Positions 3,646-18,685 of a DNA stretch of 37,982 nucleotides are shown here, piece by piece. Position 1 is the stretch's first letter, and each line of letters begins with the position of its first letter. The notes under the pieces were generated by a model. That model made no database searches, had not been told where the DNA came from, and saw only the letters and a program-made list of their open reading frames with translations. The DNA lies in the NCBI RefSeq assembly GCF_020618775.1, contig NZ_JAESVB010000027.1, forward strand, positions 1 through 37,982. Reading direction: 5' to 3'. The position numbers and the translations under genes are program-made. The DNA is from Acidisoma silvae. GTDB lineage: Bacteria; Pseudomonadota; Alphaproteobacteria; Acetobacterales; Acetobacteraceae.

Positions 3646-4404
3646 TCAAGCGGATTGGCCACCGTCGACGTTGAGCGTTGCGCCCGTGATGTAGCCGGCT
3701 TCGGGTCCGACCAGGAAGGCGACCGCGGCGGCGATGTCCTCCGGCTGTCCGTAGCGGCCGAGGGACGCAAGGCCCGTGAGCGTCGCAGCGAAGGGGCCGT
3801 CCTCGGGATTCATATCGGTGTTGATCGCGCCTGGCTGCACGATATTGACGGTGATGTTGCGCGAACCGAGGTCCCGCGACCAACCGCGAGTGTAGGCGGC
3901 GATCGCCGCCTTAGAGGCAACGTAATCCGACGCCCCGGCGAAGGGAATGCGGTCCGCGCCCGTCGTGCCGATAGAGACGATACGGCCGCCATCGCCGAGT
4001 AGCGGCACCGCCGTCCGGACGGCAGTGACGACGCCTTTGACATTGATGTCGATCTGACGGTCGAAGCCTGCGGTATCCACGGCGGGGTCACCGACCATGC
4101 CTGTCACGAACACGCCCGCTGAATTGACCAGGATGTCGAGCCGGCCGAAAGCCTCGTGGGCTTGCCTTACGAGGCCCTGGACCTCCACCGCGTTGGCTTG
4201 GTCGGCCCGTATGGCGAGACCCCGCTGGCCGAGCGCCTCGATCTCCTCGACGACCCGGGCGGCCCGATCTTTCGATGCGGAGTAGCTGAACACGACGTTC
4301 GCCCCGTTCTGGGCCAGACGCCTGACGATTGCGGCGCCGATCCCCCGCGAACCTCCGGTGACGAGAGCGACCTTACCTTCGAGTGGTCTGCGATCAGTGG
4401 CCAT
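3646..4404 (-). CDS. SDR-family oxidoreductase
   Basis: A classical short-chain dehydrogenase/reductase of 252 residues. It shows the cofactor motif TGGSRGIG near residues 16-23, the NSAG motif (LVNSAGVF), the catalytic Ser in VSIGTTG and the YVASK Tyr-Lys pair, ending in the usual [12 protein letters not shown]. The start chosen is the second in-frame ATG, because GGAGG lies six bases before it. It is first in the operon with the SnoaL-like and MDR genes and is transcribed away from the LysR gene, a standard arrangement for LysR control. NADP(H) preference is likely from TGGSR; the substrate is unknown. Confidence 0.93.
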
Positions 4405-5448: not shown

Positions 5449-5706
5449 GTTGGCAGATCCGACGCCCCGGCCCCTGCTCTGTCAAATGACTTGCTCATCT
5501 GGGCCACGGACTCGTGGCGGCCTAAATGTTCGCTTTTCCATTTGGGCGCTCTATAGCGGTCAGTCCGCTCACGGCCAAACTCGGCCATTCAGACATCGTG
5601 GCGGCGTTCTCAGTCCGTCCCACGAACCGTGCTCTCCCACCCGTTCTATGTTGTACCCTTAGACCGGCCATAATTCGACGTCGGTAAAGGCGTAGCCCTC
5701 CCTGAC

Positions 5707-5810
5707 GCGCAGCGCCGGCATGCGAGGTAGCGGCGCCGGGCTGCTGTAGGCTGTGGGGCGAAGCCCTGCAGGCGAGCGGCCCTGCGCTGCGCACCCGAGC
5801 GTGCCTCACT
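5707..5810. repeat. Conserved non-coding block A, copy 1 (beyond the 3' end of ssb)
   Basis: 104 bp, about 90 percent identical to 17919-18022 and the same length without gaps. It begins GCGCAGCGCCGGCATGCGAG and contains GGGGCGAAGCCCTGCAGGCG. It lies 43 bp beyond the ssb terminator; the second copy lies 38 bp beyond the terminator of an unrelated gene. It has several short dyads but no convincing reading frame. The remainder of the gap from 5449 to 5850 shows nothing else. Confidence 0.8.
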
Positions 5811-5853
5811 TCCCTTCGAAGCAACCCAAAATCCCGGCCGAACCTGGAACGCA

Positions 5854-5882
5854 GAAAACGCCGGCCCCGTGAGGGACCGGCG
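5854..5882 (-). terminator. Rho-independent terminator of ssb
   Basis: Read on the minus strand, a GC-rich stem CGCCGGTCCC / GGGGCCGGCG with a TCAC loop is followed by TTTTCT, starting 18 bp after the ssb stop codon. Confidence 0.8.
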
Positions 5883-5900
5883 CTGCGGTGGCGACACCCC

Positions 5901-6353
5901 CTAGAAGGGGATGTCATCTCCGGAGAGGTCATCGACCGGCGGGCGGTTGCCGGCACCGACCAACTCGCGATCGTCCTCGCGGCGGCTCTGGCGAGAGGTG
6001 GAGGGTGCATCGAGCAGTGTCAGTTCGCCGGCGTAGTTTTCGAGGTGGATTTCGGTCGTGTAGCGTTCGTTGCCGGCGTTATCGACCCATTTGCGGGTCC
6101 GCAGCTTGCCTTCGAGGTCGAGCTTGCTGCCCTTGGCGAGGAATTTCTCGACGATCTTCACCAGGCCCTGGTTCCAGACCACCACGCGGTGCCATTCGGT
6201 GCGCTCGACCCGCTCGCCGCTGGTGCTGTCGCGCCAGCTATCGCTGGTGGCGAGCGAGAAGCTTGCGACGCGGTTGCCATTGCTGACGGTGCGGATCTCG
6301 GGGTCGATGCCGACGTGGCCGAGCAGGTTCACTTTGTTCTTCGATCCAGCCAT
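5901..6353 (-). CDS. ssb: Single-stranded DNA-binding protein
   Basis: A 150-residue SSB. The OB-fold occupies about residues 5-110 (NKVNLLGHVGIDPEIR, NGNRVASFSLATS, TEWHRVVVW, LDLEGKLRTRKW) and a short linker ends in the acidic tip DDIPF, which recruits replication and repair partners. The start is the ATG at 6353 with AGGAG nine bases upstream; the frame is open further but without support. The linker is short and charged, as in plasmid SSBs. It has its own terminator and is bracketed by blocks A and B, which also bracket an unrelated gene at 18095-18685. It probably coats single-stranded DNA during transfer or replication of the element. Confidence 0.95.
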   Translation of the reverse strand: MAGSKNKVNLLGHVGIDPEIRTVSNGNRVASFSLATSDSWRDSTSGERVERTEWHRVVVWNQGLVKIVEKFLAKGSKLDLEGKLRTRKWVDNAGNERYTTEIHLENYAGELTLLDAPSTSRQSRREDDRELVGAGNRPPVDDLSGDDIPF

Positions 6354-6450
6354 CTTCTTCACTCCTAAAAACCTTCGGAGGTGAGCCGGCGGCGCCGGTT
6401 CCAACCTCTCGGGGTGCGGTCGATGGGACCGGTGAGGAGCGTGCGGAAAT

Positions 6451-6588
6451 CCCTGAGAACGGCAGTGGTGCGGGAGCGCAGCGACCCGGTGCCGTTCGAA
6501 CCGGAGGCGCTTTGCCCGTCAGAACAGGCGCCTTGGCGCCTGGACGGCAAAGCGGGGATTGAAGCGCTAGCGACGGCCGGTCTAGACC
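6451..6588. repeat. Conserved structured block B, copy 1 (upstream of ssb)
   Basis: About 138 bp matching 18787-18925, nearly identical over the first 95 bp. It contains two nested dyads. One has arms GAACGGCA and TGCCGTTC (6457-6497). The second pairs GCTTTGCC..GTC with GACGGCAAAGC, enclosing CAGGCGC and GCGCCTG; its loop differs between copies (four bases CTTG here, three bases ATA in copy 2) while the stem is unchanged. The block begins 98 bp upstream of the ssb start. It could be a promoter/leader with a structured RNA or a protein-binding site. Transcription direction is not proven. Confidence 0.8.
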
Positions 6589-7027
6589 GCAGCACCCTCC
6601 CGAGAGGTCCAGAACCGCGTCACCGTCTCCCCTCCCGTTCGGTTCCAAAGGAGTGAGGTTGGGTGGTCTTCAGAAGACCGGGGTGCAGCCCGGCCCCTTT
6701 GTTGGCTCGACCGGACTCCGCCCGTCACCTTCAATGGGTCCGTGCAAGCGCCCTCCCTGCCACAAGCGCCGGACGCGAGAGACTGGGCACAGCGGCGCCG
6801 GGTGCCCCGAATGGCGATGGCGACCGTGGTCGTCCAGGGGCCGGAAGATTCGAGGAGAGAGAAACGCCGCGAAGGGCGACCGGAGCATGGAAGGCATGCC
6901 GGATACGGGGCGAGGGCGCCCCGGCCGAAAGGGGTTACGACCGAAGAAAGTCCTCGATCTGCGCTGTACGGCTGGAATCGATCGTGCGACTCTGCTGAAT
7001 CGAAAGTCGCGCGAGGGGATCGAGAGA
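6589..7027. other. Gap before the WGR gene, no gene supported
   Basis: Frames are open across this stretch in several phases, but none has a family signature or a good ribosome binding site. Its composition is like the neighbouring leader DNA. It probably holds the promoter of the WGR gene. Confidence 0.4.
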
Positions 7028-7324
7028 ATGCAGGATCGGTGCGTCATGCTACGGGCGGTGAACCCGGAACGGAACGTCAACCGTTCATGGGTGTGTCGCA
7101 TCGAGCGGGATCTGTTCGGGGCGTGCGTGGTGAGCGTGACGTTTGGCCGGGCGGGGACGCACGGACGGACGATCCGACGTATGGTTTCGGATGACGCCGC
7201 GGCCGACCGGTTTTTGGCGAGCGCGCTGGTGCGCCGCAGAGGTTCGACGAAGCGGTGCGGCGCGGCCTACCGCGTGATTGAGGCACTTGGCTTTGATGAG
7301 CTACTCACATGGCTTGGTGCGTAA
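7028..7324 (+). CDS. WGR-domain protein
   Basis: About 98 residues, essentially one WGR domain: RSWVCRIERDLFGACVVSV, then FGRAGTHGRTIRRMVSDDAAADRFL, then a conserved Tyr near RCGAAYRV. WGR domains bind nucleic acid, as in PARP enzymes, and free-standing ones are common on alphaproteobacterial plasmids and often neighbour single-stranded DNA proteins. The frame is open upstream to 6653, but that part has no WGR similarity; I use the ATG at 7028 with GAGAGA before it, and 7046 is an alternative. A role in DNA repair or plasmid maintenance is inferred from the domain and from the nearby ssb. Confidence 0.75.
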   Translation: MQDRCVMLRAVNPERNVNRSWVCRIERDLFGACVVSVTFGRAGTHGRTIRRMVSDDAAADRFLASALVRRRGSTKRCGAAYRVIEALGFDELLTWLGA

Positions 7325-7382
7325 TCACGCAGGATAATCGTGTTGTAGGTGCAACAGCGCAAAACGCGAGCAAAACGCCCAG

Positions 7383-8540
7383 CTAAACCGCGGGCGTCAT
7401 TAGCATCTGAAACGTGAACCGGGTCTCTTCGGCCGTAGAGCTAGCGGTCAGCGTGCCCCCATGAGCCTTGGCAATCTCAGAAGCGATATGCAATCCGAGG
7501 CCCAAGCCTTGCTGGCTAGCCCTAACCTCGCCGCGGAAGAACGGCTGGAACAGACGCTCGACTGCGGCAGGCGGGATTGGATCGCCGCCGTTGGAGACCC
7601 AGATGGTCAATACCGCCTCGGTTTGATCAGCATGTAGGCTGATCGGCATTGTTGTATCACCATGGGTCAAGGCGTTGCCGAGCAGGTTGGATACGAGTTG
7701 CTCAATTCGGGATGGATCGCACCGAACGGGCGCTGGTAAGTCCAGATCGATTTCGATGACCCGGTCAGGGGCCCCCAAGCGTAGCTCGGCGACGACGTGT
7801 TCCAGCACAGGGTTCAGCATCACATCCGGTCTAAACTCGACTGGAATACCCGCGCCCAGACGCCCACGTGCGAAGTCCAGCACGTTGTCAATCAGGACCG
7901 CCATTCGGGTGACACTGCCTGCGAGCGCATCAAAGATAAGCTTTCGGCGTTCGGCGGGTTGGTCTTTCTGTATTAATCTCAGGCCACCGGAAATCGAAGC
8001 GAGGGGATTTCGAAGGTCGTGGCCGAGCACCGCAATGAACTGCTCGCGCAGTTCGGCCGTCTCCCGCTCGGTATCGAGAAGCCCTTGCGTCGTTCGCTCC
8101 CGTCCCTCGAGCTGGCTATGGGCATCGACGATCTGTCGCTCGTAGCGGCGTCGCTCGGTCGCCATGAAGAACGCCAGGCGGATCGAAAGCGGCTGCCCGC
8201 TGGCATCCTTGCGAACCTGACCGCTCGCGGACACGGCGATTTTTTCCCCGGTCGAGGTGCGCAGGTCGAACGACATCTCGTCGCAGGCACCGTTGAGGCT
8301 CAGCTGCGGGGCGAAACTGGTCTCGTAGAAGATCCGGGTGCCGACCGTCAGCAGGTCATGGAGCCGCTTGCCGACAAGCTGCTCCGCCGGCTGGCCGATC
8401 CAGGTCGCGAGCCGTAGGTTGGCGCGGGTAATGCGCCCATCGAGCTGCATGACGAGATACCCGCAGGGAGCGTTATCGAAAAGGTCCTGGAAGCCGTCTT
8501 CCGGTGCAACGGATACTTGGTCCGCGCCGGGTTCAAACAT
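7383..8540 (-). CDS. PAS-domain sensor histidine kinase
   Basis: 385 residues, no membrane segments. A PAS domain spans about 17-130 (FDNAPCGYLVMQLDGRI ... LVGKRLHDLLTVGTRIFYET), followed by a coiled coil about 130-168 and a HisKA dimerisation domain with phospho-acceptor H174 in GHDLRNPLASI. The ATPase domain shows the N box NLLGNALTHG and the glycine box GLGLGLHIASEIAKAHGG. The PAS domain is of the type found in RsbP and its relatives. The gene overlaps the preceding RsbQ-like hydrolase by 8 bp, so the two are translationally coupled. No response regulator lies nearby, so its partner must be elsewhere. Confidence 0.92.
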   Translation of the reverse strand: MFEPGADQVSVAPEDGFQDLFDNAPCGYLVMQLDGRITRANLRLATWIGQPAEQLVGKRLHDLLTVGTRIFYETSFAPQLSLNGACDEMSFDLRTSTGEKIAVSASGQVRKDASGQPLSIRLAFFMATERRRYERQIVDAHSQLEGRERTTQGLLDTERETAELREQFIAVLGHDLRNPLASISGGLRLIQKDQPAERRKLIFDALAGSVTRMAVLIDNVLDFARGRLGAGIPVEFRPDVMLNPVLEHVVAELRLGAPDRVIEIDLDLPAPVRCDPSRIEQLVSNLLGNALTHGDTTMPISLHADQTEAVLTIWVSNGGDPIPPAAVERLFQPFFRGEVRASQQGLGLGLHIASEIAKAHGGTLTASSTAEETRFTFQMLMTPAV

Positions 8541-9321
8541 AGGCGCGGATCGCTTTGATTACTTCTGCAGGGGCGCTGAGATTGGGACAATGTCCGGTTG
8601 CCCGAAGCTGCAACAGTGTGCTGCCTTCGATTTGGCTATGTACGTACTCGCCGACGGCCGCTGGCGCGATGATGTCATCGCTGCACTGGAGGATCAGAGT
8701 CGGCGTCGTGACACGTGCCAAGTCGGCGCGATTGTCGGAGGTAAAGGTGACGCGAGCGAACTCTTTTGCGATTGCGGGGTCCATTCGGCAAAAGCTGTCT
8801 TTCAGTTCCTCGCCAAGTTCAGGACGTTCGCTGTTTCCCATGATGGCGGGGGCGACGGCTGCTGCCCAACCCATGTGGTTGTTGCCGAGGAACTCGAGCA
8901 GCTCCTCGATCTGGTCCGTCGAGAAGCCGCCGACATAGTCGCCGACGTCAATATATCGGGGAGATGGCCCAACCAAGACCAACTTCTTAAACAGCGCCGG
9001 CGCCTTGATGGACGCCAGAATGCCGATCATTGCACTTACCGAATGGCCGACGAACACGGCGTCCCGCAGTTGTAAGTCCTGACAGATTTCGATCAGATCG
9101 TCGGCATAGCCTGATAAGTGCGCATATTTCACCGGATCGTAGGCCGAAAGTTGCGACTGACCTGCACCGACCTGGTCGAACAGTATTGTTTTGAATTTGT
9201 CTTCAAAAGCGGGCGCTACATGGCGCCACATATTTTGGTCACACCCGTAGCCATGGGCGAAGATTATCGCTTCCTCACCATTTCCATGAACGCGAACGTT
9301 GTTTCGACTTCTGGCTGACAC
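8533..9321 (-). CDS. RsbQ-like alpha/beta hydrolase
   Basis: 262 residues of the RsbQ/KAI2/D14 group: VRVHGNGEEAIIFAHGYGCD and QNMWRHVAPAFED are near-diagnostic. The triad is visible as Ser94 (GHSVS), Asp215 or 216 (CSDDIIAP) and His244 (GHCPN). In Bacillus subtilis RsbQ activates RsbP through the PAS domain of RsbP, probably by supplying or modifying a small hydrophobic ligand. Here the partner is a PAS histidine kinase in the overlapping next gene, so the same sensing logic probably feeds a two-component pathway. The start is a GTG at 9321; an ATG-initiated longer form is not available. Confidence 0.9.
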   Translation of the reverse strand: MSARSRNNVRVHGNGEEAIIFAHGYGCDQNMWRHVAPAFEDKFKTILFDQVGAGQSQLSAYDPVKYAHLSGYADDLIEICQDLQLRDAVFVGHSVSAMIGILASIKAPALFKKLVLVGPSPRYIDVGDYVGGFSTDQIEELLEFLGNNHMGWAAAVAPAIMGNSERPELGEELKDSFCRMDPAIAKEFARVTFTSDNRADLARVTTPTLILQCSDDIIAPAAVGEYVHSQIEGSTLLQLRATGHCPNLSAPAEVIKAIRAYV

Positions 9322-9460
9322 ATAGGCCCCGGTAACGGAAATGTTACCATCACTATAGAACTTAGACGAGGATCATTCTAGGCCCCCCTCCTGTTCCAGT
9401 GCTCAGGTGCTCAGTAAGCCCTTTGGCATGAATTAAATTGTGTTTGATGACGCGGTTGTC

Positions 9461-9503
9461 TGCGCGAAGGATCGTCACCCGAAGGGCCGAGACCCGCAGG
9501 GGC
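9461..9503. repeat. Short interspersed repeat R, copy 2
   Basis: About 43 bp beginning TGCGCGAAGGATCGTCACCC, matching 1443-1485. It continues into GC-rich DNA up to about 9555. The gap from 9322 to 9609 otherwise holds only the presumed divergent promoters of the RsbQ-like and VOC genes. Confidence 0.5.
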
Positions 9504-9609
9504 TCGGTGAGCGCAGCGAATAGAGCCTGACCCGAAGCGTAGCGTAGGGGCGCGCCACATAGTATTGGCTTTGATGCAAAATCGCGGACGATGGTCGTCG
9601 GAGATAAAC

Positions 9610-10032
9610 ATGAAGCGCAATTGGACGATCATTGGGGTCACTGACGTAAGTCAAAGCATGAAGTGGTATCAGTCGCTTCTTGGCCTACCCGAGACCGCTC
9701 CTGCCCATGATTATTTCGGGCAAGTTCTCGATAGTGATGGCACGGTGTTGCTCTGTCTCCACGCATGGGGTCCTCACGGACATCCCACGCTAACAAGTCC
9801 CGATCTCGCCGCGCCTGGCAATGGGTTGCTCTTGTTCTTTCGCGTGGACAACTTTGATGAGGCGCTGCCGGTGGCCCGCTCTCTGGTCGGTCGGTTGGAA
9901 GAAGAGCCGCATCTGAATCCGAGCACAGGGACGAAGGAGTTCTCGCTCCGCGATCCTGATGGATACTATGTGAGCGTCAGTGCGCTTGAGGGGAAACCAG
10001 AATACGGCCTCGAATACGTGGCGCCTGAGTGA
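9610..10032 (+). CDS. VOC-family (glyoxalase/bleomycin-resistance fold) protein
   Basis: 140 residues. Features of the VOC fold are visible: VSQSMKWYQSLLGLPE, FFRVDNFDEALPVARSL, and EFSLRDPDGYYVSVSA with the C-terminal metal-ligand region. The start is the ATG at 9610, with GGAG about nine bases before it; an upstream ATG in the same frame lies inside repeat-rich DNA. The GFA-family gene begins 15 bp after its stop, so the two formed an operon before that gene was broken. The function (dioxygenase, glyoxalase-like or resistance protein) cannot be read from sequence. Confidence 0.85.
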   Translation: MKRNWTIIGVTDVSQSMKWYQSLLGLPETAPAHDYFGQVLDSDGTVLLCLHAWGPHGHPTLTSPDLAAPGNGLLLFFRVDNFDEALPVARSLVGRLEEEPHLNPSTGTKEFSLRDPDGYYVSVSALEGKPEYGLEYVAPE

Positions 10033-10047
10033 TGGGAAGGAGAGCCG

Positions 10048-10284
10048 ATGGACGGGTCTTGTCATTGCGGCACGGTGCGCTGGCGCTTCGAGGGCGTGCC
10101 GACCTCTGCGACGAGCTGCAATTGCAGTATCTGCCGACGGCACGGCGCGTTATGGGCGTATGGCTTTGAAGGCGAGGCTATTTCAGTCTCCGGTGAAACT
10201 GGCACCTATGTCTGGAACAACAAAGCGCTCGCGTTTCATTTCTGCGCCCGGTGTGCGTGTGTCGTCGCTTGGCTCGCCACAAGT
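10048..10284 (+). pseudogene. GFA-family protein, 5' half (interrupted by the 7.47-kb insertion)
   Basis: Codons 1-79 of a GFA (glutathione-dependent formaldehyde-activating-like) protein: GSCHCGTVRW, CNCSICRRHGALWAYG and FHFCARCACVVAWLATS carry the zinc-binding cysteines. After the codon for Ser79 the frame runs into the inserted DNA and would end at 10395 with 36 unrelated residues. The missing C-terminal half is at 17766-17918. Joining the two at one copy of CCACAAGT restores an uninterrupted frame of 129 residues ending DGRCVAAVWF, the normal length and end for this family. AAGGAGAGCC precedes the start. Confidence 0.9.
10277..10284. repeat. 8-bp target-site duplication CCACAAGT, left copy
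   Basis: Identical to 17758-17765. Eight base pairs is the usual duplication size for IS66-family transposition. It marks the left boundary of the unit 10285-17757. Confidence 0.88.
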
Positions 10285-10806
10285 GTGAGCGTCGGCGGGA
10301 AGCATAGTGTCCATCGCGCCTGCTCGAAACAGCTCGTGTGCAGCGCCGGGATCAGCCGCGATCGTGGCGTGCATCTCTCGCTCGTCATCCGTTAGTTCGT
10401 GTTCGAATTCGCCGGCGATGTAGCGAGCATGCTGCGCCTCGATGAAGCGCAGCGTTTCCAGGTTCCGGAGCTGGAGGTGCCGCGCGAAACCGTAAAGCGG
10501 CATCCGATCACTTCCGTCGAGGCCGGCGCAATTGCCGTCACGAATTTTCAGCCAAGTCTCGCTCTGGGAAAATGGAGCCTCGATCGTCTCGTTCAAATGG
10601 CGCTCGATCGACGCGGGCGCGCCACTGTCGTCAAAGTCGTGAAGGCGCTCCTCATAGCCGATGCCGTGGACTGACTTGCGTTCGGTGACCACAACATCGC
10701 GATGGCGCTCAAGGACCATGACCTTGTTCTCATCGCCGGCGCAAGCGAAGCGACGCATGTAGAACTGCGGCACATAGTGGTGCTTCTTCGGCTCGTTTGC
10801 AGTCAC
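10285..10806 (-). pseudogene. DUF4238 protein, 3'-truncated at the transposition boundary
   Basis: The N-terminal 174 codons of a DUF4238 protein; the start KKHHYVPQFYMRRFA is diagnostic. The start is GTG at 10806 with AAGGA upstream. The frame stays open to 10183, but from 10284 downward it reads antisense through the GFA gene, so the last ~34 residues are not native. Intact family members are considerably longer. The imitation IS66 end (10285-10299) falls in the codons for PADAH. The function of DUF4238 is unknown. Confidence 0.82.
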
Positions 10807-10916
10807 GTTCAGCCGTCCTTTTCCGTGAGATCGAGTCTCTGCGCCCGTACGGCCGTGACGAAGAGCACTTGAGCGCTCTAGCGGTCGTCGGGCGCGGCGC
10901 AGGAAGGGCCATTGAC

Positions 10917-11312
10917 CTATGTGTCGTCCTGCGCTTCAGACTGATCGAAGGCCTTGCGCGCCTCCTCGACAGAGGTTCGATTGGTTTGGACCCATCCAGC
11001 AAGCACCTCTAGTGGGGGCCTAAGAGAGTGGCCGAGCTTCGTGAGTTCATAATCTACTCTCGGCGGTACCGTTGCAAACACGGTGCGCTTTACCAAACCA
11101 TCGCGTTCGAGACCGCGTAATGTCAGCGTCAGCATGCGGTGCGACACGCCCGCGATGGCGCGCTGCAGTGCATTGAAGCGCATGGGGCCGTCCGACAAGT
11201 TCCCAACGACCATAACGGTCCACTTATCACCTACCCTGTCGAGAATGTTTCCAAGAGCCTTGCAGGTGTCCGCATCTGGCCTGCCCGGAGCGGCGATTTT
11301 GGCTGCTGGCAA
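10917..11312 (-). CDS. HxlR/DUF24-family redox-sensing regulator, QorR-like
   Basis: 131 residues from a TTG start, chosen because AAGGAGG lies eight bases upstream; the frame is open to 11426 but the extra residues are not like the family. The winged helix is clear: WTVMVVGNLSDGPMRFNAL, then SHRMLTLTLRGLERDGLVKR. With this start there is a single cysteine, Cys17 in DADTCKALG, at the position used for thiol-based sensing by QorR and YodB. It is divergent from the qorB-like gene, the same arrangement as known qorR-qorB pairs, so it probably represses that gene until oxidised or alkylated by quinones or aldehydes. Confidence 0.88.
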   Translation of the reverse strand: MPAAKIAAPGRPDADTCKALGNILDRVGDKWTVMVVGNLSDGPMRFNALQRAIAGVSHRMLTLTLRGLERDGLVKRTVFATVPPRVDYELTKLGHSLRPPLEVLAGWVQTNRTSVEEARKAFDQSEAQDDT

Positions 11313-11341
11313 CTTGGAGTCCTCCTTCGTTAGGCACACTC

Positions 11342-11357
11342 GTGTTCGCACGAACAC
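11342..11357. promoter_or_regulatory. Palindrome, candidate HxlR operator
   Basis: A perfect dyad GTGTTCG-CA-CGAACAC between the TTG start of the HxlR gene and the divergent qorB-like start at 11438. A weaker related element, GCACGTACATTTTGTGC, lies at about 11399-11415. Placement suits autoregulation and repression of the divergent operon. Confidence 0.55.
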
Positions 11358-11437
11358 TTGCGTGCGTTCTTGCGGCATACCGAAATCTAGAACACTTTGC
11401 ACGTACATTTTGTGCGTAACGAACAAATGGAGTTCAC

Positions 11438-12295
11438 ATGAAAATCGGTATCAGCGGCGCTAGCGGTAATCTGGGAAGGGCCGTCCTGGCGGAAATTGCG
11501 ATCCGCAATGCGGGCGCAGAGGTGGTTGCGATTTCACGCACGCCCGATTCACTTGGGAGCGGGGTTGAGGGCCGGCTAGGCGACTATGACCGCCCGGAAA
11601 CCCTGGCCTCTGCCTATGCCGGGATAAATCGCCTGGTCATTATCCCGAGCGCCGATTTGCGGAAGGGAATCAGGGGCAAGCAGCTCATCGCGGCGATCGA
11701 CGCCGCAGTCGCCGCCGGCGTCGAGCAAGTTGTGCTGGTGTCAGCTGTGGGCACACGCAAGCAGGAAGAACCCCACATCGGCGCCGCGTATTGGGCCGGC
11801 GAGCAACATCTCATCAAGGTCGCGCCGGCCTGGACGGTCGTGCGAATGAGCTACTATGCCGAGGCCTTTGCAGGCGATGCGCAGATGTCAGCAGGCATGG
11901 GCGTGCTTACCGGCCTGAATGAAAACCGGGTGGCTTACGTATCGCGCGACGACGTGGCAGCAGCGGTCGTCGGTGTACTGATCGGTGACGGGCACGAGGG
12001 GGCGATCTATTCAGCAACAGGTCCGAAGAGCTTCACCGGCGCGGAGCGGGCGGCAACCGCGACAGCGTTTGTAGGCAAGCCTTTCGGCTTCGTCGTCGTG
12101 ACTGAAGAACAGTTGCGCGGCGGCCTGGCGCAAGCGGGACTACCGGATGACGTAGTGAACGCCGTCGTCAGCATCCAGAGCGACTACGCCAGGGGGGCGT
12201 TCGATATCGTTACCGGCGACGTTGAGCACCTGTCTGGCCGCGCGCCCAGGGCACTGGAAGACGTCCTTAACGCTCTTGCCTCCAGCGGGAGCTGA
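11438..12295 (+). CDS. qorB: NAD(P)H quinone reductase, QorB/NmrA-like SDR
   Basis: 285 residues of the atypical SDR (NmrA-like) type. The Rossmann motif GISGASGNLGRAV opens the protein, and the body follows QorB (YtfG): RLGDYDRPETLASAYAGI, LVIIPSADLRKG, VLVSAVGTR. The YxxxK pair is not conserved, as is normal in this group. GGAG lies eight bases before the ATG. It starts a three-gene run, followed after 3 bp by the DsbA-family gene and then an EthD remnant, and is divergent from a QorR-like repressor. The reaction is probably two-electron reduction of quinones with NADPH. Confidence 0.85.
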   Translation: MKIGISGASGNLGRAVLAEIAIRNAGAEVVAISRTPDSLGSGVEGRLGDYDRPETLASAYAGINRLVIIPSADLRKGIRGKQLIAAIDAAVAAGVEQVVLVSAVGTRKQEEPHIGAAYWAGEQHLIKVAPAWTVVRMSYYAEAFAGDAQMSAGMGVLTGLNENRVAYVSRDDVAAAVVGVLIGDGHEGAIYSATGPKSFTGAERAATATAFVGKPFGFVVVTEEQLRGGLAQAGLPDDVVNAVVSIQSDYARGAFDIVTGDVEHLSGRAPRALEDVLNALASSGS

Positions 12296-12298
12296 GAC

Positions 12299-12946
12299 AT
12301 GAGCACTTTAAAGATCGACCTCTACGGTGACACCGTTTGTCCGTGGTGCATCATCGGCCAGCATCGGCTCGACAAGGTCCTGAAGGAGCGTTTTCCCGGC
12401 CTCGCCGTCGATATTGAGCACCATCCGGTTCTGCTGATGCCCGACACCCCCCCGGAGGGCTCCCGTATCCCTGATCTGTTGAAGGCTCGGTACGGCGTCA
12501 CCGATCCCTCGGTCGCTTTTGCCCGCCCACATGCTGAGGCAAAAGCATCGGGGCTTGACCTAGATCTCAACCGTCAACCGTATGCGTACCCCACCCTGGA
12601 CGCTCATACTTTGATCCGACTGGCCCGCGCGCGCAGAACCCAACATGCGCTCGCCAATGCCATCTCGCACGCCTATTTCATGGACGCGCGAGACATCTCT
12701 GATGCGGACGTGCTGGCCGATATCGCCGTTCAGCATGGGTTTAGTCGGGACGAGGTGATCGCCTTGTTGGCCGACGAGAAAGAGCGGGCGGAAACCCGCC
12801 GTGAAGTGGCCCGGTCGGCCGCGGCCGGCGTGAAGTCCATTCCTCACTTTGTGTTCAACGGACGCCTCGCGATCAACGGCGGTCGCAGCGAAGCCGAATT
12901 GGCCGAAGCTATCCGCTCCTCGCAAACAGGGCCTGAGGCCCAATAG
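12299..12946 (+). CDS. DsbA-family (FrnE-like) oxidoreductase
   Basis: 215 residues, cytoplasmic with no signal peptide. A thioredoxin fold with active site CPWC at 14-17 has a helical insertion and the cis-proline loop GVKSIPHFVFNG near 177, matching the FrnE/2-hydroxychromene isomerase-like branch of DsbA proteins. It begins 3 bp after the qorB-like stop, so the genes are co-transcribed. A thiol-disulfide role alongside a quinone reductase and a thiol-sensing repressor makes an electrophile or disulfide stress unit plausible (inference). Confidence 0.9.
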   Translation: MSTLKIDLYGDTVCPWCIIGQHRLDKVLKERFPGLAVDIEHHPVLLMPDTPPEGSRIPDLLKARYGVTDPSVAFARPHAEAKASGLDLDLNRQPYAYPTLDAHTLIRLARARRTQHALANAISHAYFMDARDISDADVLADIAVQHGFSRDEVIALLADEKERAETRREVARSAAAGVKSIPHFVFNGRLAINGGRSEAELAEAIRSSQTGPEAQ

Positions 12947-12982
12947 GGCATCGGAGCTTGGGTCGAAAGCAAAGAGGAAAAC

Positions 12983-13147
12983 ATGACTAAGATGATCGTA
13001 ATGCTAAAGCGCCGCGAGGGCATGACCCATGCCGAATTCGTGAAGCACTACACAAACACGCATCGACCGTTGCTTGAGTCGATTCCGGAAACGCAGCGCC
13101 TTGTGAAGGGTTTTGTCGTTTCTTTTCCCGTGGCAGCACCACAGTAA
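12983..13147 (+). pseudogene. EthD-domain protein, 3'-truncated by IS66
   Basis: 54 codons beginning MTKMIVMLKRREGMTHAEF and continuing KHYTNTHRPLLESIPE, the N-terminal half of the EthD/dimeric ferredoxin-like fold. AAGAGGAAAAC precedes the ATG. Native sequence stops at 13143; the last codons are made by the IS66 left end and its TAA. Intact members are about 100 residues. The missing half is not found beyond the right end of the IS66, which shows that the IS66 did not insert here in the present molecule by a simple event. Confidence 0.75.
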
Positions 13148-13160
13148 GCGTCAGCCAGTC

Positions 13161-14688
13161 CTTTTAATTACCCACAATTTTGATACCCATCGTAGCACCC
13201 AGTTCGATATCGGTGAGGCGGGAGAGTCCGCGCCACATAACCATGTTACCAGGCGGCGGATCATTAGTTCGGGCGAGATAACCGCCGAGCCTGGCGAGCT
13301 TCGTCAAGTAATGCGACAGCGTCTTCAGCTTTGGGGCGCATTGGCCTTTGTCTTTCACCAATTGGTCAAGCAGCGCGATCTCGGTTTTGGTCAAGGCTAT
13401 GTCCGGTGGCGCGGCCGGGGCTGTACGATTAAGCATCGTCATCCAGAAGATGCGCCAGCTCAAAATACAAAAGACTGCAATGAGATTTGCCAGTCGCCCA
13501 GCAGTCCGCAATCTTGAATCTTCCGCTTTGCAACCGGATTTGAGGATTTTGTGGAACACCTCAATTTTCCATCGCAAGGCATACCACTCGAGTTTTTGAA
13601 TGGCGTCTTTACGTGACGTTACCGACAGATTGGTCAGCAGCTTCCAATCGATCTTCTTTCTGTTTTTCGGGGCCCCTTGCTCCTGTGCGTGGATGACCGT
13701 CAAAGTCAAAGCAGGGTATCGCTTCTGTTTGCCGATCGGCGGCAAGACACGAAGCCTGCGATATCGGATTTCAAGAACAGCCTCGTCCGGCTCGCCATTC
13801 TCGTCCCGAACCTCGATCCGATGCAAACCCCTGATCGCCACCTCATCCATTTCGTCGGCGACCGTGTGACCACCGTTTCCGGCAAGGCGATTAACGCAGG
13901 TTCTCACCAGGAAATGCGTTCCAATCTCTTCCGCAGTGCAGAATAGCTCATAGATATCACTCTCCCGGTCGCCGATGTGGATGCATCGGCTTGCATCATC
14001 CAGAAGTTCGGTGGACTGCTTGAGATTTTCGAGCCACCGGATACTTTCCTTCTCTTCGATAGGGACCCGTGTCGGATTGATCTTTCTTTTGAGAGCTGCC
14101 GTTCCCTTGAATTTGTCCCGGGTCCAGAATTTGACCGCCCCGAGACCCAGCGGCAACCCGTCGGTCGTAACCGCAAGACTTGAGTGCATCAATATTCCAC
14201 ACGCTGTGTATGATCTCGGTTTACCCGCCAAGTCCCGTCGGCTGTTGGTAATGAGTTTGGTGATCCCGATCAGCTCGGGCCTATCCCTCTGATATGTGAA
14301 CTCTGTTGTATCGTGAAGCACGAGGATCGGGCCGCCCGCGGCCGCAATGCGTTCACGTGTCGACTGGAAATGCCCTGAGAAAATATCCGCCTCGCTGACC
14401 CGATCGTTCGAGAAAAAGCGATAAGCAGCCTTCGTGTTCGCCCAATCCTGGCAAACCAATGGAATGCTTTGTCCCACAGCACCTCCCATCTGTGTCAACA
14501 GCTTGCAAAACCGCGTCTTCAGACGTTCATCCGAAAAATGACAGCCAGATATTTCCCGGTCAAACCATGAACCATCACACTCAACCATCGCACCGCCCCC
14601 GAATCGGTGCCAGACAAGGAATCACAAGAGATTCGCGCTGCGCAATATGCCTCGCTCAGAAAAGCCTATATTTGTGGGTAATTAAAAG
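13161..14688 (-). mobile_element. IS4-family insertion sequence nested in the IS66 left end
   Basis: 1528 bp with terminal inverted repeats CTTTTAATTACCCACAA (13161-13177 and the complement at 14672-14688). It is flanked by the perfect 9-bp duplication CAGCCAGTC (13152-13160 and 14689-14697). It lies only 17 bp inside the left end of the IS66 element, separating the outer from the inner part of that inverted repeat. Confidence 0.92.
13164..14588 (-). CDS. IS4-family transposase (IS50-like)
   Basis: 474 residues, apparently intact. The N-terminal Tn5-like domain includes DERLKTRFCKLL and CQDWANTKAAYRFFSN. The catalytic DDE domain shows VLHDTTEFTY (first Asp), a second Asp in IHIGDRESDIYELF, and the YREK signature YALRWKIEVFHKILK with its Glu. 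It occupies almost all of the element. Its stop codon lies just inside the left terminal repeat. Confidence 0.93.
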   Translation of the reverse strand: MVECDGSWFDREISGCHFSDERLKTRFCKLLTQMGGAVGQSIPLVCQDWANTKAAYRFFSNDRVSEADIFSGHFQSTRERIAAAGGPILVLHDTTEFTYQRDRPELIGITKLITNSRRDLAGKPRSYTACGILMHSSLAVTTDGLPLGLGAVKFWTRDKFKGTAALKRKINPTRVPIEEKESIRWLENLKQSTELLDDASRCIHIGDRESDIYELFCTAEEIGTHFLVRTCVNRLAGNGGHTVADEMDEVAIRGLHRIEVRDENGEPDEAVLEIRYRRLRVLPPIGKQKRYPALTLTVIHAQEQGAPKNRKKIDWKLLTNLSVTSRKDAIQKLEWYALRWKIEVFHKILKSGCKAEDSRLRTAGRLANLIAVFCILSWRIFWMTMLNRTAPAAPPDIALTKTEIALLDQLVKDKGQCAPKLKTLSHYLTKLARLGGYLARTNDPPPGNMVMWRGLSRLTDIELGATMGIKIVGN

Positions 14689-14712
14689 CAGCCAGTCAGC
14701 GCGTTCTCGTGT

Positions 14713-15159
14713 TCAAGAGATGCGATGAAGAAGGGCCGAACTGCGCTCCTGTATCGGCTCGCCAGGCATCGCCCACGAATACCCGTGGAAGAGTTCTCCA
14801 CCACTCTCCAACCGAAAAGTGATTACCTCTCGGAAGGAGTCCTCATCGTCAATGTTTCCTAAGGTCAGCAGCAAGGATTGGGTTGTCGGCTGTGTTGCCG
14901 AGAAGGATGCCAAGCCGGGGATATTGTTGCTCACGCTGAATGCAGCGGTTGTACCGTTGGACTGCATGCCGATCATTAATGTTTCACGATGATACAGCGT
15001 GCCGTCGGAGCCTTCAGCAGCGAAATGAATGAGCATCGCCAAGCTATTGATTTGCGGATCGAGGATCAGTTCGCCGGTGTAGCTCTGTCCTTCATGATTG
15101 AGCCCTGATCCCTCCCATTTGCCGCATAGCTTAGCCAGGAAGGCAATGTAGTCTGACAT
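14713..15159 (-). CDS. Unknown 148-aa protein, passenger of the IS66 element
   Basis: The protein starts MSDYIAFLAKLCGKWEGSG; the ATG at 15159 has AGGAG ten bases upstream, while the longer open frame to 15252 overlaps tnpC and lacks support. The pattern of alternating strands with an early GKWEGSG resembles small beta-barrel (lipocalin/FABP-like) proteins, but I cannot assign a family. It has no signal peptide. It lies between tnpC and the left IS66 end, in the same direction as the transposase genes and 67 bp after tnpC, so it travels with the element. A role in transposition is not implied. Confidence 0.6.
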   Translation of the reverse strand: MSDYIAFLAKLCGKWEGSGLNHEGQSYTGELILDPQINSLAMLIHFAAEGSDGTLYHRETLMIGMQSNGTTAAFSVSNNIPGLASFSATQPTTQSLLLTLGNIDDEDSFREVITFRLESGGELFHGYSWAMPGEPIQERSSALLHRIS

Positions 15160-15226
15160 TAATCGTCTCCTAGTGAGGGATTGAAACAGGTTAGTCGCTG
15201 ATCCGGAAGTTAGCTTAATATCAGCT

Positions 15227-16837
15227 TCAACTCGCAGGCAAAATTGAGACATCCAGCGTCAATGGTTCGATCTTGGTTTCCTGCTGTCTCCTGTTCCATG
15301 GCAACAATTCGCTAAGTCTATTGATAGGGTGGCCCTTCGCCATGCGGTCGATGATGTCGGCAAGATAGGCTTCCGGATCGAGGCCATTGAGCTTTGCAGA
15401 TTCCAGGACGGTATAGATCACAGCGGCACGTTCACCGCCGGTGTTAGAACCCAGGAACAAAAAGTTTTTGCGGCTTATGGCGATGGTTCTTAAGGAACGT
15501 TCGGCTGGATTGTTGTCGATGCCGAGCCGACCATCTCCGGTATAGAGGCACAAAGCATCCCAGCGTGTAAGCGCATATTGCATTGCCTTCGCCAAGCCAG
15601 TTTTCGAGGACAACCGCCGGCGCTGTTCCGATAACCAGGTTTTGAGATCGGTCAGGAGTGGCAGCGCTTGTTCGCGTCGAATCTTTTGCCGTTCATCGGT
15701 CGTCTTGCCGGTGATCTCGGCCTCGATCGTGTACAACTCGCCGATGCGTCGAAGTGCTTCCTTGGCAATGGGTGATTTGGTCCGCTCGAATTCATCGAAC
15801 AGCTTTCTACGTGCATGAGCCCAACACGCGGCATGCATGATGCGAGGTACATTGACACCTGGCGGACCAACCTGCCGCGTCAACGCCTCGTAGCCGCTGA
15901 AGGCATCGGCCTGGATCACGCCATGGAAGTTGGCAAGATGCTCGCGCGGCCGCTCGCCTTTGCGATCCGGACTGAACCGGTAGTAGGCGGCTGGGGCGCG
16001 GGTTCCCTGCCAGGGCCGCTCATCAACCAGGTAAATCCAGATGCGCCCGGTTCGTGTCTTTCCATTGCCGGGCGCCAGCACCGCGATAGGCGTGTCATCG
16101 GTGTGAATTACCGATGCCGCCATCACGAACGCACCGATCATCGCTGCCAGTGGTGCCACCCACCAGGCGGCATGACCGACCCAGTCGGCCAGCGTGGCAC
16201 GTTCGATCTCGACGCCCTCGCGCGCCAGGATTGCGGATTGGCGGTAGAGTGGCAGCCCATCAAGATATTTTGACACCACGACATTGGCGAGAAGCCCTGA
16301 GCCTGGGCGGCCCTTCTCTATCGGCAGGTCTAGCGCTGAAGCCTGGATAATGGTCTCGCACGCCCGACAGGAGAGCTTTGGACGGATATGCCGGATCACT
16401 TTCAGCCGCGCTGGGATTTTTTCCAGCACGTCGGTGATATCCTCGCCCAACTTGGAGAAGTGCGTGCCGCCGCAGCTAGGACAAACATCGCCTGCAGGAT
16501 GAGTGATCTCCTCGCGCGGCAGATGTTCGGGCAAAGGCCGGCGTACCGGCTGACGCCGCTGCGGCCTGGGAAGATCAAATGTAGTATTCTTTGCTCCCGC
16601 AATACGTGCAGCCTCACTCTCTTCGAGGTCTTCAAGCTTTAATTCGAGCTGGTGGATTTGCCGGTCCAGCGCTTCGGATGAATGGCCAAACTTCATCTTG
16701 CGGAGCTTGTGCAGCTGGGCCTTGTATTGCTCGATCAGAAGATGAGCGCCGGTCAGTTCGGCGCGCGCCGTTGCTAGTTCAGCATCACGTTCGCTAAGTT
16801 GGGCACGGAGAGTGGCGATCTCTGAAGCAGCATCCAT
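15227..16837 (-). CDS. tnpC: IS66 transposase TnpC
   Basis: 536 residues. In order: an N-terminal coiled coil (1-75), a zinc-finger-like segment CPSCGG ... CRAC near 118-160, and the DDE core with IHTDDTPIAVL, IQADAFSGYE and IDNNPAERSLR. The C-terminal IS66 domain is FLFLGSNTGGERAAVIYT and following. Full length for the family with no stops, so probably active. It is preceded by tnpB after about 70 bp. Confidence 0.95.
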   Translation of the reverse strand: MDAASEIATLRAQLSERDAELATARAELTGAHLLIEQYKAQLHKLRKMKFGHSSEALDRQIHQLELKLEDLEESEAARIAGAKNTTFDLPRPQRRQPVRRPLPEHLPREEITHPAGDVCPSCGGTHFSKLGEDITDVLEKIPARLKVIRHIRPKLSCRACETIIQASALDLPIEKGRPGSGLLANVVVSKYLDGLPLYRQSAILAREGVEIERATLADWVGHAAWWVAPLAAMIGAFVMAASVIHTDDTPIAVLAPGNGKTRTGRIWIYLVDERPWQGTRAPAAYYRFSPDRKGERPREHLANFHGVIQADAFSGYEALTRQVGPPGVNVPRIMHAACWAHARRKLFDEFERTKSPIAKEALRRIGELYTIEAEITGKTTDERQKIRREQALPLLTDLKTWLSEQRRRLSSKTGLAKAMQYALTRWDALCLYTGDGRLGIDNNPAERSLRTIAISRKNFLFLGSNTGGERAAVIYTVLESAKLNGLDPEAYLADIIDRMAKGHPINRLSELLPWNRRQQETKIEPLTLDVSILPAS

Positions 16838-16910
16838 TGCTCAGGATTCTACCAGAAACCTTAAGGTCACGCACGATAATTTTGATATTTACCAACAGGT
16901 TTTGTGGGCC

Positions 16911-17258
16911 TTAGCAGGCCACTTCCGGTGCCCATGTCCGTACCGGTGCACGCCAATCTATGCCTTCGAGTAACATCGAGAGTTGTGCCCTCGTCAGTGA
17001 AACAGAGCCGTCCTTGGCTTGCGGCCATAGAAATTTGCCGCGCTCCAATCGCTTGCTAAACAGGCAGAGACCTTGCCCATCCCACCATAGAATCTTGATC
17101 AGATCACCCCGCCTGCCGCGGAACGCATAAAGCGAACCATTATGGGGATCAAAGCTCAGCATTGTCTGAACCTGGGCAGCCAACGTATCGAAACCCTTCC
17201 GCATGTCGGTGACACCGCAGGCGATATAGACACGGACATTCCCCGCCGGGCCGATCAC
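16911..17258 (-). CDS. tnpB: IS66 accessory protein TnpB
   Basis: 115 residues with the TnpB (Orf2) signature: GVTDMRKGFDTLAAQVQ, YAFRGRRGDLIKILWWDGQG, CLFSKRLERGKFLWP. It overlaps tnpA by 4 bp (ATGA), the usual translational coupling in IS66. It is required with tnpA for transposition in characterised elements. Confidence 0.94.
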   Translation of the reverse strand: MIGPAGNVRVYIACGVTDMRKGFDTLAAQVQTMLSFDPHNGSLYAFRGRRGDLIKILWWDGQGLCLFSKRLERGKFLWPQAKDGSVSLTRAQLSMLLEGIDWRAPVRTWAPEVAC

Positions 17259-17680
17259 GATAAGGCCGACAAAATCCGCCGCAACGCAACTTCATCGACA
17301 TCATAAGGGATGCGCAGCTTTATTCCGTTCGGCAGGTCCACCTCAATCGAACTGGCAGCTGCAATAGTCGTTAAGGGCAGTGCCTCCACCACGGGATCAG
17401 GTGCTGGCAACACCGGGGGCTCCTGCGCGATGGATACCGGGACAAACCCGGTTAGATCGCCCCGGCGAAATTGCTTGCGCCAGGTATAAAGCTGGCCGCT
17501 GCTGATGCCATGCAGTTTACAAGTCAACGTCGGAGATGACCCCGGCGCCACGCTCTGCGCCAAGATCCGCAACTTCTCCTCCATGCTCCACCGACGTTTG
17601 CGCTCCAGGCCCGGCATAATCTCGCCAAATACCTCCGGAGCCCTCAGGAGGTGCCTCTCACCTACCGTGTCATCGTCCAT
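17255..17680 (-). CDS. tnpA: IS66 accessory protein TnpA
   Basis: 141 residues from the ATG at 17680 (MDDDTVGERHLL); the frame is open 10 codons further. A helix-turn-helix of the transposase-8 type is present (RRWSMEEKLRILAQSVAPGS, then CKLHGISSGQLYTWRKQFRRG), with a C-terminal tail IEVDLPNGIKLRIPYDVDEV typical of IS66 OrfA. It is first in the tnpABC operon; the promoter must lie in the 77 bp to the right end. Confidence 0.92.
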   Translation of the reverse strand: MDDDTVGERHLLRAPEVFGEIMPGLERKRRWSMEEKLRILAQSVAPGSSPTLTCKLHGISSGQLYTWRKQFRRGDLTGFVPVSIAQEPPVLPAPDPVVEALPLTTIAAASSIEVDLPNGIKLRIPYDVDEVALRRILSALS

Positions 17681-17757
17681 GAAAGCACCGCTCAAATTGA
17701 ACGGGTACAATCGCCCTTAAGCAAAACGCCACAAGACGCCGATCGGCTGACGCTTAC

Positions 17758-17918
17758 CCACAAGTCGCGGACAGGATGGTCGCGTTTACGGTGCGGTGAA
17801 TTTGCGCCTCGCCGTCGAACCGGAGGCTGTTGCCGCGGTTCCGATCGTCCGCCACGATACCGAGACTATGAAAGATCTTCCGGGCGACGGGCGATGTGTC
17901 GCGGCCGTGTGGTTTTAA
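17758..17918 (+). pseudogene. GFA-family protein, 3' half (right of the insertion)
   Basis: 17758-17765 is the right copy of CCACAAGT; 17766-17918 continues the GFA frame: RGQDGRVYGAVNLRLA, EPEAVAAVPIVRHDTETM, then KDLPGDGRCVAAVWF and TAA. It completes the protein begun at 10048. There is no start or ribosome binding site here, so this half is not expressed alone. Block A copy 2 begins immediately at the stop codon. Confidence 0.88.
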
Positions 17919-18022
17919 GCGCAGCGCCGGCATGCGAGGCAGCGGCGCCGGTCTCGCGCAGGCTGTGGGGCGAAGCCCTGCAGGCGAGCGGGCCTGCGCT
18001 GCGCACCTGAGCGTGCCCCACT
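17919..18022. repeat. Conserved non-coding block A, copy 2
   Basis: 104 bp, the partner of 5707-5810. It starts at the first base after the GFA stop codon and ends 38 bp before the terminator of the 196-aa gene. Differences from copy 1 are mostly single substitutions, with one cluster of changes around 17953-17960. Confidence 0.8.
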
Positions 18023-18059
18023 CCCTCTCCGCCTCCCGAACCGCCGTCGAGAACACGAG

Positions 18060-18087
18060 AAAAGGCGGGGACCTTTCGGTCCCCGCC
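18060..18087 (-). terminator. Rho-independent terminator of the 196-aa gene
   Basis: On the minus strand AGGCGGGGACC-GAAA-GGTCCCCGCCT is a perfect 11-bp stem with a GNRA loop, followed by TTTTCT. It begins 8 bp after the stop codon. Confidence 0.92.
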
Positions 18088-18094
18088 TGCCTTC

Positions 18095-18685
18095 TCAGCC
18101 CAGGGCGTCCATCTGGGCGGCTGTGGCCTGGGCGCTGACGCTGCGGGATGGGGCGGCGGGGGCCACGTAGGGCTTCCACTCTTCGCCGGTCAGCTCCTTG
18201 AAGGCGTGAACGGCGCCGTAAGCTGCGGCGTAGAGGGCGAAGGCGGTGAGGCCGGTCTGGGCGGCAAACTCGCGGGCGCGGGCGGCTCTGCTGTCGAACC
18301 CGGACACGCCGTCCCGGTCTTCGTCCCGATCCTCGTTGGCGAGCTTCATGGTCATCTCGCGGGCGACGGTGACCTTGTTGGAGTAGAAGGTGGCGGCGCC
18401 GTGGGCGGAACCGACAAAGGCCCCGACGATGCGCTGGAGGTGGATGCGCAGGGCCGTCTCGTTGACGTTGGGTTCCAGGGTCTTGGCGGACTGGGTGAAC
18501 TGCTCTTGGGTGGCATCGCAGACGCCTTCGAAATCGACCGGCTCAAGGCCGAAGGCGGTGCTCAGCTTATCGGCTTGGCCGGGTGTGGGGGTGAGGAGGG
18601 CGACGAGTTCGAGGGTGATCGGCTGTTGCGTCTTCTGGGCGCGAGCGGGCTGGGGTGCGGACTTCGGAGCGTTCTTCTGGGCCAT
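18095..18685 (-). CDS. Conserved unknown protein in an A/B-flanked module
   Basis: 196 residues. I do not recognise a family. The N-terminal ~25 residues are Ala/Pro/Lys/Gln-rich and probably disordered. The middle (30-125) is predicted helical: LELVALLTPTPGQADKLSTA, FEGVCDATQEQFTQSAKTL, ALRIHLQRIVGAFVGSAHGA. The C-terminal part contains GLTAFALYAAAYGAVHAFKE, then LTGEEWKPYV and an Ala/Ser tail. No signal peptide or clear membrane span. A GAGAGATCAG precedes the ATG. The gene sits between blocks B and A at nearly the same distances as ssb, so the two are probably regulated or were acquired the same way. Confidence 0.75.
   Translation of the reverse strand: MAQKNAPKSAPQPARAQKTQQPITLELVALLTPTPGQADKLSTAFGLEPVDFEGVCDATQEQFTQSAKTLEPNVNETALRIHLQRIVGAFVGSAHGAATFYSNKVTVAREMTMKLANEDRDEDRDGVSGFDSRAARAREFAAQTGLTAFALYAAAYGAVHAFKELTGEEWKPYVAPAAPSRSVSAQATAAQMDALG

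Follow-up and report, generated by a model that had tools for sequence, protein, structure and literature searches.

We analysed contig NZ_JAESVB010000027.1 of Acidisoma silvae, a stretch of 37,982 nucleotides (the window), in which a 7,473-bp unit at 10285–17757 interrupts a GFA-family gene, is flanked by exact 8-bp repeats of CCACAAGT and contains an insertion sequence (IS) of the IS66 family. The initial annotation, made from the sequence alone, had proposed that the IS66 transposase moved the whole unit by accepting a surrogate left end inside a neighbouring DUF4238 gene. The features that bear on this proposal are listed below, with open reading frames abbreviated as ORF.

10048–10284, plus strand: 5′ part of the GFA-family gene, including the left CCACAAGT (Pfam GFA, E = 1.3e-9 for ORF 10048–10395; empty site at locus L027)
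10277–10284, plus strand: left copy of the 8-bp target duplication, CCACAAGT (repeat count in the window)
10285–10296, plus strand: putative surrogate IS66 left end, GTGAGCGTCGGC (end matching, homologues and matrices; DUF4238 codons Ala-Asp-Ala-His on the minus strand)
10285–10806, minus strand: DUF4238 gene cut after residue 174, where full homologues have about 296–319 aa (Pfam PF14022; homologues L029, L030, L031, L071 and L007)
13144–13160, plus strand: outer 17 bp of the genuine IS66 left end, GTAAGCGTCAGCCAGTC (end match in sequence)
15227–16837, minus strand: IS66 tnpC transposase (Pfam PF03050, E = 9.3e-94)
16911–17258, minus strand: IS66 tnpB (Pfam PF05717, E = 2.1e-40)
17255–17710, minus strand: IS66 tnpA (Pfam PF01527, E = 1.6e-12)
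17745–17757, minus strand: genuine IS66 right end, GTAAGCGTCAGCC (exact 13-bp match)
17758–17765, plus strand: right copy of the 8-bp target duplication, CCACAAGT (repeat count in the window)
17758–17919, plus strand: 3′ part of the GFA gene (collinear with L027 and other GFA homologues)

The interrupted GFA gene and the IS66 element

The two copies of CCACAAGT at 10277–10284 and 17758–17765 are the only exact ones in the window, and fusing the GFA halves at one of them yields a single 129-aa frame, in agreement with the earlier description of a gene split at 10284/17766. An uninterrupted site with a single CCACAAGT, which the initial annotation had suggested looking for, is present in a genome of the same genus (G003, locus L027; 80% identity over 409 bp) and carries the joined sequence. 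Its alignment with the window has one 1-base gap, a deletion in L027 at the 19th base beyond CCACAAGT; since the G003 copy is thereby put out of frame, L027 is an empty site but perhaps not a working GFA gene. Three further GFA homologues (L148, L149 and L151; 48–51% identity) have open frames and are collinear across the joint to the end, and four others (L150, L152, L153 and L157) align less completely.

Within the unit, the 13-bp sequence GTAAGCGTCAGCC occurs exactly at 13144 (plus strand) and at 17757 (minus strand), marking two genuine IS66 ends that are inverted, both start with GTAAGCG and resemble each other beyond the outer ~12 bp. The right end is thus a true IS66 end and the true left end lies 2.86 kb inside the unit, both as first described; the left end interrupts ethD. 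Pfam matches to HTH_Tnp_1, TnpB_IS66 and DDE_Tnp_IS66 make up a complete gene set of tnpA, tnpB and the DDE transposase gene tnpC, and leftward from the right end the order is tnpA, tnpB, tnpC, an extra ORF at 14713–15159 and, at 13144, the genuine left end. Judged by its genes and ends, the element at 13144–17757, minus an inserted IS4-type element, is an IS66, and the unit contains no second IS66 gene set and no further exact IS66 end. The duplication is absent at the genuine left end, where the 8 bases before 13144 read GCACCACA; the repeats adjoin the right end and the surrogate end. The cargo outside the genuine left end amounts to 2,859 bp and comprises a truncated ethD, dsbA, an NAD(P)-binding oxidoreductase gene, hxlR and the truncated DUF4238 gene.

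The left boundary of the unit

Position 10285 (plus strand) reads GTGAGCGTCGGCG, and the boundary sequence GTGAGCGTCGGC agrees with the IS66 end at 10 of its first 12 bases, a match of at least this quality having a chance of 4.5e-5 at one fixed site. Five sites in the window reach 10/12: the two genuine ends, 10285, 9970 and 11122. We also scored the window with a matrix of 38 ends taken from 19 duplication-flanked IS66 copies, some of these ends being near copies of each other and one being the end of L142 described below. Position 10285 ranks 6 of ~76,000 window positions: both genuine ends and three positions beyond the unit score higher, and no other non-genuine site within the cargo does. 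With a matrix of 28 GTAAGCG-anchored ends it ranks 8 of ~76,000 and again leads the cargo sites. Look-alikes of the IS66 end at 9970, 11122 and 12580 lie in the same orientation near or within the cargo.

The boundary also lies in DUF4238 coding sequence, as originally claimed. Five DUF4238 homologues, from Novosphingobium (L029), Sphingopyxis (L030), Aureimonas (L031), locus L007 and the Sphingopyxis plasmid pDB-1 (L071), run through the boundary and continue for more than 100 residues. The window's final DUF4238 codons are GCC GAC GCT CAC, and the aligned codons are GCA GAC GCT AGC in L031, CCT GAC TCT GCC in L029, GAC GAT GCC GCC in L030, GTT GAC GCA AGC in L007 and CCC GAT GCT CAT in L071, which shares Asp-Ala-His with the window. 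In each of the five, homology thus comes within 3 bases of the left boundary, and in L071 it reaches the boundary itself. Because the five homologues run through it, bases 4–12 of the surrogate end are native DUF4238 sequence, and the outer left boundary is not visibly an IS66 remnant.

Probable surrogate-end transposition and its alternatives

On this sequence evidence, the unit at 10285–17757 is very likely a single-IS transposable module, in which the IS66 transposase would have used its genuine right end together with a surrogate left end. The donor would have held an IS66 in ethD, adjoining a presumably contiguous run of dsbA, the oxidoreductase gene, hxlR and DUF4238. The transposase would have paired the genuine right end with the same-orientation look-alike situated 2.86 kb outside the genuine left end, in DUF4238, and everything between the paired ends would then have been inserted into the GFA gene with the usual 8-bp duplication, the cutting presumably being done by the IS66 transposase. 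The IS4-type insertion, 17 bp inside the genuine left end, may predate the event and may have weakened that end; alternatively, the choice of end could reflect rare misrecognition. The acceptance of a surrogate end first suggested in the initial annotation is supported by the coding-native boundary, by the GTG-starting end of L142 and by the duplications, and we hold it with considerable confidence.

Several properties of the boundary weigh against this interpretation. Look-alikes of at least 10/12 are not rare across the window; cargo site 11122 is closer by simple count (11/12), though it scores below 10285 in all three matrices; and the surrogate resembles an IS66 end over only ~12 bp. With a matrix of 20 distinct ends without L142, 10285 drops to 11 of ~76,000 and cargo site 12580 scores higher, so the notion that 10285 is the best cargo look-alike in every matrix holds for the 38- and 28-end sets and fails for this one. 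At worst 11th of ~76,000, the coincidence with the boundary stays strong. Of the 38 reference ends, 37 have A at base 3, where the surrogate has G. The lone exception is the right end of L142, an IS66 at 4041–6839 of contig C44 in the same genome, with unequal ends GTAAGCGTCCGGA and GTGAGCGTCCGGT and an 8-bp duplication, GGAGTATC; because this duplication-flanked end (GTGAGCGTC) starts with GTGAGCG, G at base 3 is tolerated. The terminal triplet (bases 1–3) encodes Ser or Ala in four of the five DUF4238 homologues and His, as in the window, only in L071; since these relatives are 57–80% identical in protein and four of five differ at bases 1–3, the donor's own terminal triplet is something we infer.

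The repeats themselves are not decisive: 12 of 100 shuffled windows also hold at least two copies of CCACAAGT, and for this reason the pair counts only by its location. Both this figure and the frequency of 10/12 look-alikes would suit chance repeats and a chance end likeness around an unrelated insertion or an assembly join. We regard that explanation as extremely improbable, given that the repeat, the restored frame, the empty site and the end likeness meet at one base position and that the joint lies within one contig.

Recombination could also have produced the locus: an ordinary IS66 would first have entered the GFA gene, and DNA carrying DUF4238 through ethD and IS66 would then have recombined with it, by homologous exchange on the IS66 side and by a short-homology joint at AGCGTC on the left, formed either on the incoming DNA or by deletion after integration of a plasmid. 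AGCGTC is indeed common to the IS66 end and DUF4238, and this history would yield an identical arrangement with identical 8-bp repeats. However, a joint through the shared AGCGTC would leave the A of the IS66 end at base 3. The G found there agrees with a native DUF4238 CAY codon and not with IS66, because CAY gives G, as in the His-coding DUF4238 of L071; the exchange would have to fall in the first two bases or be followed by a later mutation. A short-homology joint could, moreover, land anywhere in the element, and we consider this history improbable.

A third possibility is that the unit is what remains of a composite transposon whose left-hand IS66-like copy, bearing a GTGAGCGTC end, has been lost by deletion except for its final 3–9 bases. 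L142, the IS66 of this genome that has a GTGAGCGTCCGGT end and a flanking duplication, is an example of such a copy, and the absence of His at the terminal triplet in four of five homologues fits it as well. Yet DUF4238 homology over bases 4–12, and over bases 1–3 in L071, leaves room for at most a few IS66 bases, and the history requires both a mixed composite and a deletion stopping within 9 bp of the outer end, making it very unlikely. A composite transposon has two flanking IS copies, whereas here DUF4238 homology reaches the left boundary (L071) or stops within 3 bases of it; the unit holds only one IS of the mobilising family, and its outer end is IS-like and carries the target duplication, as in a transposable module.

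We surveyed related IS66 copies in 60 regions hand-picked from a longer match list, of which 59 were used (L146 was omitted because it overlaps L101) together with the window, yielding 61 tnpC copies in 54 of 60 regions. An 8-bp duplication adjoins GTAAGCG ends in 14 of the 61 copies (13 exact, 1 with one mismatch), and an exact one adjoins variant or displaced ends in five more (L094, L114, L115, L142 and L118), consistent with the statement in the initial annotation that IS66 elements make 8-bp duplications. A search for outer ends that adjoin a copy of the 8-mer from the right flank retrieved the window's surrogate end (10/13); the candidates in L111 and L121 were chance matches (5/13). L118 was rejected as a second surrogate case on account of its long matching inverted ends and three genes that appear by eye to encode tyrosine recombinases. 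At 5580–11551 (reverse complement coordinates), L118 is a 6-kb IS66 with this apparent recombinase trio beside tnpC and an exact 8-bp duplication. Two outcomes of the survey count against surrogate-end transposition: a second surrogate-end unit was absent among the surveyed copies, ~41 of 61 being unjudgeable (unrecognised ends, contig edges, partial copies), and four of the 61, counted among these ~41 (L093, L100, L101 and L103), have both GTAAGCG ends with no duplication and no outer match, so a duplication missing at a genuine end also has other causes.

The cargo genes that the proposed donor would have supplied, besides DUF4238, are as follows.

10917–11426, minus strand: HxlR-type regulator (Pfam PF01638, E = 9.1e-27)
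11438–12295, plus strand: NAD(P)H-binding oxidoreductase-like protein (Pfam PF13460, E = 5.7e-16)
12299–12946, plus strand: DsbA-like thioredoxin-fold protein (Pfam PF01323, E = 1.7e-25)
12983–13143, plus strand: ethD cut by the genuine IS66 left end (Pfam EthD, E = 7.8e-6)

Truncation of both DUF4238 and EthD, noted earlier, is borne out by the Pfam matches, by the longer DUF4238 homologues and by the end of ethD at the IS66 end at 13144. For the cluster previously called QorR/QorB/DsbA, Pfam upholds DsbA, and the names QorR and QorB are not confirmed, their NCBIfam matches being far below cut-offs.

The intact donor predicted by the initial annotation, a DUF4238-to-ethD locus with an IS66 in ethD, was not found in 147 relatives, 299 family genomes or plasmids, which is a further point against the proposed history. 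Segment 10285–13143 matches 21 of 147 genomes including its own, and in the others the strongest matches are 70% across 359 bp, 74% across 214 bp and 66% across 440 bp, plus shorter pieces; 11400–13143 matches 41 of 299 family genomes including its own, the others weakly. Among 72,556 plasmid records, 61 matched in the donor search (top match 64% over 43% of the query), and a near search with 9500–18100 returned a single plasmid, from Bradyrhizobium, which matches within the IS4-type element and is the closest plasmid match to that element (75% identity). The whole unit had no match in a near-mode phage search. DUF4238 homologues occur in 6 of 299 family genomes and 4 of 385 class genomes (each count including the own genome), at 3 loci in genome_contigs and in 7 of 72,556 plasmids, with none in viral_contigs. 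The unit itself, further instances of which the initial annotation had suggested seeking, occurs a single time among the 82 contigs of the draft genome, and the survey added no second surrogate unit. In the genomes searched, 10285–13143 and the IS66 were not seen to have arrived separately, nor were the two found together elsewhere.

Known systems and the sequence inside the IS66

In the accessible portions of the papers cited here, transposable modules (TMos) are described as one IS together with the DNA beside it, which moves when the transposase accepts a sequence similar to its own end; they involve IS1380 members and possibly one IS3 member, ISPpy1 (PMC9330008). IS1380 TMos such as ISPme1 (PMC3281130, PMC9330008) share with the window's unit one IS, adjacent DNA and a terminus formed by an end-like region, but the unit is of IS66 type, has three transposition genes and is bounded by an 8-bp duplication. 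Mobilisation of blaCTX-M by ISEcp1/ISEc9 through imperfect right ends (PMC12116815) likewise uses an imitation end in an unrelated gene, with the duplication beside the genuine and imitation ends; it differs in family (IS1380) and in its 5-bp duplication, and the likeness of its imitation ends to the true end is quoted as 3 to 12 shared base pairs. In tIS66 elements such as ISPa75-fosZ (PMC12888890), an extra gene follows the DDE transposase, on the side where the window has its ORF, but the passenger sits between the element's two ends and no inner old end is described there, whereas the window keeps its original left end inside the unit. IS91-family one-ended transposition, for example by IS801 (PMC3189936), also carries adjacent DNA when the terminator end is missed; however, it follows a rolling-circle-like route with no target duplication (PMC9330008), in contrast to the 8-bp duplication here.

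A literature search naming IS66, covering few subscription journals, found no published case of surrogate-end or one-ended use by IS66, and the accessible text of PMC7371123, PMC5216076, PMC3925955, PMC3606827, PMC6209633, PMC6896180, PMC7643977 and PMC12971918 reports no surrogate-end use by IS66 either; this absence does not prove that no such case exists. What is known for IS1380 (ISEcp1, ISPme1) would thus be new here in being a transposable module made by an IS66-family element; also new are the IS4/Tn5-type element that splits the genuine left end, possibly compelling the use of another one, and the extra ORF beside tnpC. Passenger genes of IS66 elements, including a fosfomycin-resistance gene, are said to be captured in the available part of PMC12888890, which does not show the route. 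The locus looks like a capture intermediate in which the old end, the new end and the target duplication are all readable, and it suggests a possible route by which IS66 elements pick up passenger genes. If the proposed history is true, IS1380 and its few parallels are not alone in capturing DNA through surrogate ends, and annotation should include a search for IS66 copies that lack the duplication at one genuine end and have it further out.

Two features inside the IS66 are additional to those of the initial annotation.

13161–14688, minus strand: IS4/Tn5-type insertion sequence (Pfam transposase; NCBIfam NF033590, E = 2.3e-95)
14713–15159, minus strand: extra ORF between tnpC and the left end, a possible passenger gene (sub-cut-off Pfam THAP4_heme-bd, E = 0.2)

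The IS4/Tn5-type element has 17-bp inverted ends that are perfect by eye and a 9-bp duplication, CAGCCAGTC, at 13152–13160 and 14689–14697, and it splits the genuine IS66 left end 17 bp in, parting the outer 17 bp from the inner part. Because no further copy was among its matches in the draft genome, it may have arrived with the unit. The ORF had no plasmid homologue and no confident family in Pfam or NCBIfam. We entertain, tentatively, that damage to the left end by the Tn5-type element drives capture by IS66, that repeated events gather passengers on the tnpC side and that ORF 14713–15159 was an earlier catch. An old left end near 15238, as a relic of such a capture, was considered and set aside, the alignment with L039, a relative whose left end lies 58 bp from its tnpC match, being too weak to claim it. 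Among 18 relatives with both GTAAGCG ends, the gap between the left end and the tnpC match is 43–110 bp in 13 and 165–793 bp in five, so a wide gap is not unique to the window; the five (L096, L097, L089, L093 and L133) have room for extra sequence.

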